A DNA stretch of 64,000 nucleotides from Leisingera sp. SS27 (lineage in GTDB: Bacteria; Pseudomonadota; Alphaproteobacteria; Rhodobacterales; Rhodobacteraceae). The notes below the pieces were generated by a model. That model was not told the DNA's origin. It saw only the letters and a program-made list of their open reading frames with translations, and searched no databases. Below are positions 21,254 through 21,544 of the stretch, one piece after another (position 1 is the stretch's first letter; the number at the start of each line of letters is the position of its first letter). A program made the position numbers and the translations under genes. Location: assembly GCF_028368855.1 (NCBI RefSeq), contig NZ_JAQNCY010000004.1, forward strand, positions 310,001 through 374,000, in the 5' to 3' direction.

Positions 21254-21373
21254 CTGCTTCTCTCCTTTGCCGCATCCCCGCGGCAGGTTGGCTTGGCTGC
21301 GGGCATGGAGGGAGAGATTGCAGGCCACGCGCCTGCAACCGCCCCGCCGCCGCCCGCGGTTGACGTTTTCATG
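21254..21373 (-). promoter_or_regulatory. Expression platform between the cobalamin riboswitch and gbcA
   Basis: The 120-nt leader downstream of the aptamer contains strong hairpins on the minus strand: TTGCAGGC/GCCTGCAA, outer arms AACCGC/GCGGTT, and TGCCGC/GCGGCA directly before the AAGGAGAG ribosome-binding site. There is no U-tract, so control of translation initiation is more likely than transcription termination. This is inference. Confidence 0.5.
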
Positions 21374-21544
21374 GCAAGGCTGGTTTCCGGACTGTCCCGG
21401 GGCCTTTTGGCGGCGGGCCTGGCACCTTCCCGAAGCCGCTGCTTCAGTGGTTTTTGCCATGCCTTGCCCGGGGTCACCGTTGCGGGGGCAGTGCCGGAGT
21501 TTCACCAGCTTCCCAATTCTCCGCCCCGAAAGGCGGCACCTTGC
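21374..21544 (-). ncRNA. Cobalamin (B12) riboswitch
   Basis: On the minus strand the classic B12 aptamer is readable. P1 strand GCAAGG (21544-21539) pairs with CCTTGC (21379-21374). The 5' part carries GGTGCC, GGGAAGCTGGTGAAACTCCGGC and the B12-box-type core CTGCCCCCGCAACGGT. Then come ACCACTG, GGGAAGG and the 3' conserved AGTCCGGAAACCAGCCT. Order, spacing and total length of about 170 nt fit the family. It lies 120 nt upstream of gbcA and faces it, so gbcAB should be repressed when adenosylcobalamin is abundant. Confidence 0.93.

Follow-up and report, generated by a model that had tools for sequence, protein, structure and literature searches.

A cobalamin riboswitch precedes a GbcA/Stc2-like Rieske oxygenase gene in Leisingera and other Rhodobacteraceae

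In the genome of Leisingera sp. SS27, a full-length cobalamin riboswitch lies before a gene pair for a GbcA/Stc2-like Rieske oxygenase and its reductase, and the same placement recurs in a number of Rhodobacteraceae. A preliminary description of the window, by which we mean the whole 64,000-nt stretch of DNA that was analysed, had noted a riboswitch before a Rieske oxygenase gene, and that observation is confirmed. Such a switch on a demethylase gene suggests that the cell makes the enzyme once B12 no longer suffices for a B12-dependent route of osmolyte breakdown. We consider it probable, from the sequence comparisons below, that the oxygenase is a B12-repressed, B12-sparing backup demethylase that stands in for the MtgB-MtgC-MtgD route.

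The aptamer was found by cmscan as a match to RF00174 (108.1 bits versus a gathering score of 31.5; E value, 4.1e-26) that spans model positions 1 to 189 of 189, and it is the sole riboswitch at or above the gathering threshold in the window. The minus-strand B12 aptamer facing the gene, as first described, thus passes the covariance check over the full model. Its measures needed adjustment. Positions 21254 to 21544, originally given as its extent, do span the leader and the aptamer except for its first 14 nt, and the element does lie upstream of the oxygenase gene on the same strand but ends 107 nt from the ATG rather than 120 nt. Moreover, among 13 copies that precede the oxygenase gene, from 13 genus codes, 22 of the 43 predicted aptamer pairs show a compensatory change, with both sides altered and the pair kept, and the alignment shows many core letters to be invariant among copies of this type. 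We predict that the element works as a cobalamin riboswitch in the leader of an mRNA that encodes both oxygenase and reductase; Table 1 collects the features of this unit.

Table 1. Features of the oxygenase-reductase unit and its leader (window positions)
Feature	Position	Strand	Basis or remark
GbcB-like reductase, 361 aa, FAD + NAD + 2Fe-2S	18928..20013	-	Pfam domains; NCBIfam GbcB match
GbcA/Stc2-like Rieske oxygenase, 411 aa, probable quaternary-amine N-demethylase	20018..21253	-	PF00355, PF00848; ATG at 21253-21251
Shine-Dalgarno GGAGAG	21260..21265	-	sequence; 6 nt spacing to the ATG
Hairpin GCCGCGGGGATGCGGC, just 5' of the Shine-Dalgarno	21269..21284	-	five pairs kept in nearly all 16 aligned leaders
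TCTCTCC, possible anti-Shine-Dalgarno to GGAGAGA	21311..21317	-	weak; beats nearly all shuffles in Leisingera alone
Hairpin CCGCGGGCGGCGG, directly 3' of the aptamer, candidate P13/L13	21347..21359	-	GCGGGYGGCGG core
Cobalamin riboswitch aptamer (RF00174), subtype, B12 box AGTCCGGAAACCAGCC + GAGAATTGGGAA	21361..21558	-	covariance score and alignments
Promoter-like site, 5' of the riboswitch	21780..21809	-	consensus match alone; 1 found, 0.1 expected

The two genes are closely spaced, the reductase gene starting 4 nt past the oxygenase stop. Pfam assigns Rieske and Ring_hydroxyl_A domains to the oxygenase and FAD, NAD and 2Fe-2S domains to the reductase, and finds no corrinoid domain in either. 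GbcA (NF058607) is the best NCBIfam match of the oxygenase, at 521.9 bits, below the equivalog cut-off of 670 bits; ten relatives likewise fall under that cut-off (460 to 522 bits), and the reductase is below the cut-off of GbcB (366.5 versus 500 bits). Among solved relatives, PDB 3n0q, with the entry title "putative aromatic-ring hydroxylating dioxygenase", scores 756 bits, and Stc2 (3vca/4qup), the stachydrine demethylase of Sinorhizobium meliloti, scores 672 bits and is the nearest characterised relative. The window oxygenase also carries a CXXC motif (CYHC), aligned with that of Stc2, near the mononuclear iron site; according to passages of PMC10952381, a CXXC motif beside that site is found uniquely in some members of Group V, the Rieske oxygenases that act on quaternary amines. 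The gene had been called gbcA, for a Rieske glycine betaine demethylase. A Rieske oxygenase with its reductase stands, but because the GbcA cut-off is missed and Stc2 is the nearest characterised relative, glycine betaine is a likely substrate and not a settled one, and we name the protein GbcA/Stc2-like rather than filing it as GbcA. For brevity, gbcA and gbcAB refer below to genes of this kind.

The main rival on substrate keeps the same circuit but has the oxygenase act on proline betaine (stachydrine) or another quaternary amine, with another MttB paralogue as the B12-dependent partner. That Stc2 is the closest characterised solved homologue, that the GbcA cut-off is missed, and that the SS27 genome holds eight MttB paralogues all speak for this idea, which we regard as possible though rather unlikely. 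Against it, in a tree of 109 oxygenase rows, built by a quick method with SH-aLRT support alone, Stc2 (PDB 3vca) falls in a 40-row branch (SH-aLRT, 95) that excludes the window oxygenase and in which the sole trace of a switch is a degenerate 37-bit match at locus L075; the switch-bearing rows lie elsewhere, and 3n0q is placed among them. In addition, a StcD/DgcA-like gene is found near 28 of 57 switch-free and 0 of 23 switch-bearing copies among the best 80 of at least 594 loci, and at L084 the oxygenase gene adjoins a DMGDH-like gene (40% identity). Membership of the window protein in the Stc2 stachydrine demethylases was rejected on the position of the 3vca branch and on the 0 of 23 count. 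We note that the 100-nt match at L075 (7702-7801), 5' of the oxygenase gene, resembles a decayed riboswitch.

Recurrence of the switch was surveyed in 198 genomes of the family, one per genus. An oxygenase homologue at an E value of 1e-60 or lower was present in 49, and the 37 with at least 58% identity were followed; 12 at 32 to 46% identity, and second matches in genomes G000 and G092, were excluded. RF00174 was found directly upstream on the same strand in 16 of the 37 gene-bearing genomes, a count for which 50 to 51 candidates were scored per genome, so that weak switches may be missed. When the first 30 loci were scanned with cmscan, 13 had a switch, all inside the 16. In a second set, the best 80 of at least 594 loci, 23 had the switch upstream and one more, L075, had the partial match, which was counted as switch-free. 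The exact B12 box was present in 22 of these 23, and their genera include Leisingera, Ruegeria, Phaeobacter, Shimia, Sulfitobacter, Loktanella, Roseibium, Marivivens, Rhodobacter and Gemmobacter; the loci closest to the window by protein identity (98 to 99%) among the best 80 are those of Leisingera sp. JC1 and L. aquaemixtae. The two sets partly overlap (L058 and G163, for example, are shared members), so their counts are not independent. A survey of gbcA leaders in relatives had been proposed at the outset, and in both sets the element recurs.

A further possibility is that the riboswitch is a relic or acts in something unrelated, its placement having no physiological meaning. Its occurrence is indeed patchy, as it is absent from 21 of the 37 gene-bearing genomes and degenerate at L075. 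In the oxygenase tree, however, switch-bearing rows fall into two branches, of 26 and of 10 rows, with 9 changes in all, and there the element has been kept with covariation and many invariant core letters, and chance placement in 16 genomes is not credible. We give this idea hardly any weight.

The surroundings of the oxygenase gene differ with the presence of the switch. Catabolic neighbours, counted as StcD/DgcA-like, sarcosine oxidase, DMGDH-like or GbdR-like genes within flanks of at most 8 kb, or shorter where the contig was short, were found at 40 of 57 switch-free and 1 of 23 switch-bearing loci among the best 80 of at least 594 (Fisher P = 3e-8, with kinship ignored). DMGDH-like matches of 24 to 26% were included, GbdR-like matches below 45% did not count by themselves, and the PF00724-type neighbour is one that we take to be StcD/DgcA-like. 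Few independent changes underlie this contrast (for the switch, 5 on the tree used), and a tree-aware test of independent pairs yielded 4 to 5 pairs and a median P of 1, and thus had no power. Based on the 40 of 57 versus 1 of 23, copies for which the oxygenase is apparently the main route tend to sit in a catabolic cluster, and switch-bearing copies tend to be alone or beside B12-related genes. In the window, the scanned neighbours of the gene pair (rpiB-like, RibD_C and TetR-type genes) include none that is catabolic. At the switch-bearing locus L046, outside the set of 80, soxBA lies about 5 kb off.

Most of the 23 switch-bearing loci among the best 80 of at least 594, Leisingera included, have no nrd, MetE-like or mtg markers nearby. 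At 4 of the 23 (L063, L068, L069 and L073), class Ib nrd genes adjoin the switch-gbcAB unit, the L068 locus holding only nrdF and part of nrdE; the same neighbours occur at L047, L050 and L053, the last with a core-MetE-like gene and BtuFCD-like genes in addition. The unit of Roseibium aquae and that of R. hamelinense each diverge from a group of mtgC-, metF- and mtgD-like genes with a corrinoid-activase-like gene, some of which were named by eye. Several further arrangements were seen. At L102, L110, L168 and L169, a switch-free oxygenase gene adjoins nrdIEF with an upstream switch, which looks like a partial rearrangement of the cluster. L073 (7397-7560) and L068 (7352-7532) each carry another cobalamin riboswitch, which lies a few hundred bases upstream of the gbcA switch and points away from it; at L073 it leads to nrdIEF.

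How B12 would act on gbcAB is not fixed by sequence, as activating corrinoid riboswitches exist, one of them described in the part of PMC10653944 consulted. A switch that activates, so that GbcAB is made when B12 is plentiful, would have that precedent and might make sense of metH, which encodes a B12-dependent enzyme and occurs in some gbcAB clusters. The adjoining nrd and core-MetE-like genes, by contrast, resemble isozymes of B12 enzymes and would be expected to be repressed by B12, and we know of no reason why an oxygen-dependent demethylase should be made at B12 excess. We therefore judge activation to be quite improbable. The metH gene, split in two open reading frames, adjoins gbcAB at L047, L053 (3328-7187) and L165 (473-4374); at L047 it has its own cobalamin riboswitch upstream (11049-11250 and 11787-15570 for switch and gene together), and the logic of isozymes does not account for its placement.

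The main rival on purpose accepts that low B12 induces GbcAB but has the enzyme feed B12 synthesis rather than substitute for a B12 enzyme. Betaine would be turned into glycine, for 5-aminolevulinate as the corrin precursor, and into one-carbon units for the corrin methylations. Among the SS27 genes, cobN, cobW and other cob genes were recognised by eye; passages of a review (PMC8123684) credit betaine with stimulating 5-aminolevulinate and with higher B12 yields in fermentation; and some switch-gbcAB units lie near B12 transporter-like genes (L053 and L061) or an ABC-transporter-like gene (L089). The informative neighbours, however, are substitutes of B12 enzymes or a corrinoid methyltransferase cluster. 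Moreover, the three references searched, CobN, CobW and CbtA, had no match near the switch units except CobW-like proteins at L043, of which the single one scanned best matches a zinc chaperone family. Supply of precursors is thus an unlikely purpose in our estimate.

A backup demethylase implies a B12-dependent counterpart, and the preliminary description had placed a corrinoid-dependent methyltransferase outside the window and proposed a search for the MttB superfamily. Homologues are present in the SS27 genome. They comprise a MtgC-like protein with 83% identity to a Roseibium MtgC-like protein, a MtgD-like protein whose gene adjoins a MetF-like gene, and eight PF06253 (MttB-type) genes, two of which adjoin DMGDH-like genes (by eye). 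The MtgC-like query, from L070, scores 208 against an NCBIfam MtgC cut-off of 370, and the identity given is to the Roseibium protein. For Ruegeria pomeroyi, the relevant passages of PMC12478193 report by genetics that growth on glycine betaine, like methionine synthesis, depends on MtgC and MtgD, and that two PF06253 proteins are more abundant on this substrate.

The candidate counterpart genes are widespread. MtgC-like matches (at least 74%) occur in 33 of the 37 gene-bearing genomes and MtgD-like matches in 34. MtgC-like genes are found in 15 of the 16 switch genomes and in 18 of the 21 switch-free gene-bearing genomes; three of the four genomes that lack them have no switch, and the fourth, G118, has one (in an assembly that is 84% complete). 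Because they are also present in most switch-free gene-bearing genomes, MtgC- and MtgD-like genes do not discriminate switch genomes, and their presence was rejected as a predictor of the switch. The 16 switch genomes carry more MttB copies than the remaining 21 (P = 0.0002, with kinship ignored and counts of up to 7 per genome). The SS27 MttB encoded at C29 was rejected as a marker of switch genomes and does not explain the switch, because orthologues (80 to 83%) occur in just two of the other 36 genomes.

The SS27 genome has two genes for class II, B12-dependent NrdJ, one in the window (59969-62269) and one at L218, which agrees with the earlier remark that the same genome uses B12-dependent NrdJ. 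Class I NrdE was not found in the genome, where the weak matches fall in the two NrdJ genes, and core-MetE had no match in a search that ran without an internal positive control. With NrdJ present and neither NrdE nor core-MetE found, B12 should still be needed, and life free of B12 is not expected. Thus, "B12-sparing" fits better than the full swap between B12-dependent and B12-independent enzymes that had been proposed, although homologues of the proposed B12-dependent route, the MtgC-, MtgD- and MttB-like genes, are present.

The B12-sparing backup that we favour would work as follows. When corrinoid is plentiful, the aptamer would be bound and make a loop-loop contact with the hairpin 3' of it, and translation of the oxygenase would be lowered. 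Glycine betaine, or a close quaternary amine, would then be demethylated by the B12-dependent MtgB-MtgC-MtgD enzymes, and the methyl group would pass to folate. Scarcity of B12 would lift the block, and the Rieske oxygenase would take over, consuming oxygen and releasing formaldehyde. Betaine would remain usable, and B12 would be saved for NrdJ and methionine synthesis. As B12 is still needed, the cell would gain if a catabolic pathway of high flux did not draw on it. The computations themselves show the riboswitch with its conservation and covariation, the gene families, the MtgC-, MtgD- and MttB-like genes of SS27 and the neighbourhoods. The substrate, the ligand, the sign of regulation, its translational mode and the physiological swap are what we infer within this account.

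Control is likely at translation, as judged from the leader, and a terminator scan of the coding strand found no terminator between aptamer and start codon. The GCGGGYGGCGG core of the candidate P13/L13 hairpin, CCGCGGGCGGCGG, is present in the window and in 19 of the 23 switch-bearing leaders (best 80 of at least 594); L070, L072 and L131 have a shifted variant, and L125 has none. Its loop is complementary, CGGG to CCCG as read by eye, to the aptamer loop CCCCCG, a candidate L5, and an L5-L13 loop contact is known from other corrinoid riboswitches (PMC10653944, in part). The pattern of the hairpin before the Shine-Dalgarno, GCCGCGGGGATGCGGC, for which 16 of the 23 leaders were aligned, likewise occurs in 19 of the 23; L125 has neither hairpin. 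As each fails in 4 of the 23, the two hairpins were rejected as universal features. An anti-Shine-Dalgarno was also considered, each of 23 leaders (22 of the 80-locus set plus the window, L125 being excluded) being set against 200 shuffles of its own. Only 1, 4 and 7 of 200 shuffles were as good in three Leisingera leaders, and the overall median was 80 of 200, in a test that picked the Shine-Dalgarno window automatically and wrongly for some leaders, such as L067 and L069. Because it was strong only in the three Leisingera leaders and not in relatives, the anti-Shine-Dalgarno was dropped as a general, conserved platform.

The gbcA aptamers form a subtype. All 13 that were aligned share AGYCCGGAAACCAGCC, with GAGAATTGGGAA invariant among them, whereas all 8 other aligned copies read AGYCRGGAGACCKGCC; the latter comprise five from the SS27 genome, two beside gbcAB in G092 and one in G139. 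In the same comparison, GGAAACC in 13 of 13 gbcA copies stands against GGAGACC in 8 of 8 canonical copies, and adjoining GGAAACC, near a junction, there is a paired change from A-U (once C-G) to U-A by the Rfam structure line. The fold is retained, because part of the subtype difference is a paired change. The pattern GGGAAGG-N(20-48)-AGYCCGGAAACCAGCC occurs in 21 of the 198 genomes, of which 16 have it before gbcA and 5 before a small open reading frame, and reversed-pattern controls gave zero matches in the 198 genomes. The small open reading frame (L212, L213, L214, L215 and L216; for example, L216 1844-2140) encodes about 95 to 100 amino acids with a motif like AAR-GFLEW...LP...RRGG, and the single copy scanned had no Pfam or NCBIfam match. 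Four of the five switches lie 3' of a uvrD/pcrA-like gene, that of L213 being the fifth.

The split between GGAAACC and GGAGACC, the adjoining paired change and the box in 21 of 198 genomes raise the thought that the gbcA-type aptamer is a functional subclass, tuned to another corrinoid than the five canonical SS27 switches. We offer this as speculation, with methylcobalamin from MtgC as one example, and think it improbable. If it were true, the aptamer would let the cell sense whether its betaine methyltransferase is methylated. The five other RF00174 matches of the SS27 genome score 87 to 137 bits, making six in all, and their targets, named by eye, include btuB-btuFCD, a cbtA-like gene, a B12-type ABC transporter and the cobW-cobN region. 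Another of the five (L008 2624-2844) precedes a 166-amino-acid open reading frame (2857-3357) without a Pfam or NCBIfam match.

Among marine osmolytes, glycine betaine is abundant, and B12 is a vitamin that is scarce and traded. If a B12-sparing backup demethylase exists, ambient B12 would decide the fate of betaine methyl groups, as folate-bound carbon or as formaldehyde made at the expense of oxygen. Moreover, isozyme control by B12 riboswitches would extend from biosynthesis to a catabolic pathway, and a function would be suggested for PDB 3n0q. A literature search by title and start of abstract found no description of a cobalamin riboswitch on gbcA or on a betaine demethylase, nor is the link between switch and gbcA described in the parts of PMC9870897 and PMC8123684 that were consulted. 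In the passages found in PMC12478193, gbcAB is treated as a route of other bacteria and no gbcAB riboswitch appears, the sole "riboswitch" being in the title of a cited paper on the glycine riboswitch.

The systems most like the present one each share a part of it. GbcAB of Pseudomonas and Chromohalobacter is likewise a pair of oxygenase and reductase and supplies the best NCBIfam matches, but the window proteins score 522 and 366 bits under cut-offs of 670 and 500, and the window neighbours scanned are not catabolic. Stc2 of S. meliloti belongs to the same Rieske subfamily and has the CXXC motif by the iron site, but sits in another branch of the tree, whose one switch match is degenerate. 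The MtgB-MtgC-MtgD enzymes of R. pomeroyi presumably carry out the same reaction, glycine betaine to dimethylglycine, and MtgC- and MtgD-like genes are present in SS27; unlike the oxygenase, they use a corrinoid and folate and no oxygen (PMC12478193, in part). Finally, in isozymes controlled by B12 riboswitches, such as metE and class I nrd, the aptamer also lies directly before the gene of a B12-independent replacement enzyme. The part of PMC3766115 on Rhodobacterales (15 genomes) names such isozymes as one category of targets in cobalamin regulons, and the word "betaine" is absent from the main text of that paper. Here, the target is instead a catabolic Rieske oxygenase, which would replace a corrinoid methyltransferase of an osmolyte pathway.
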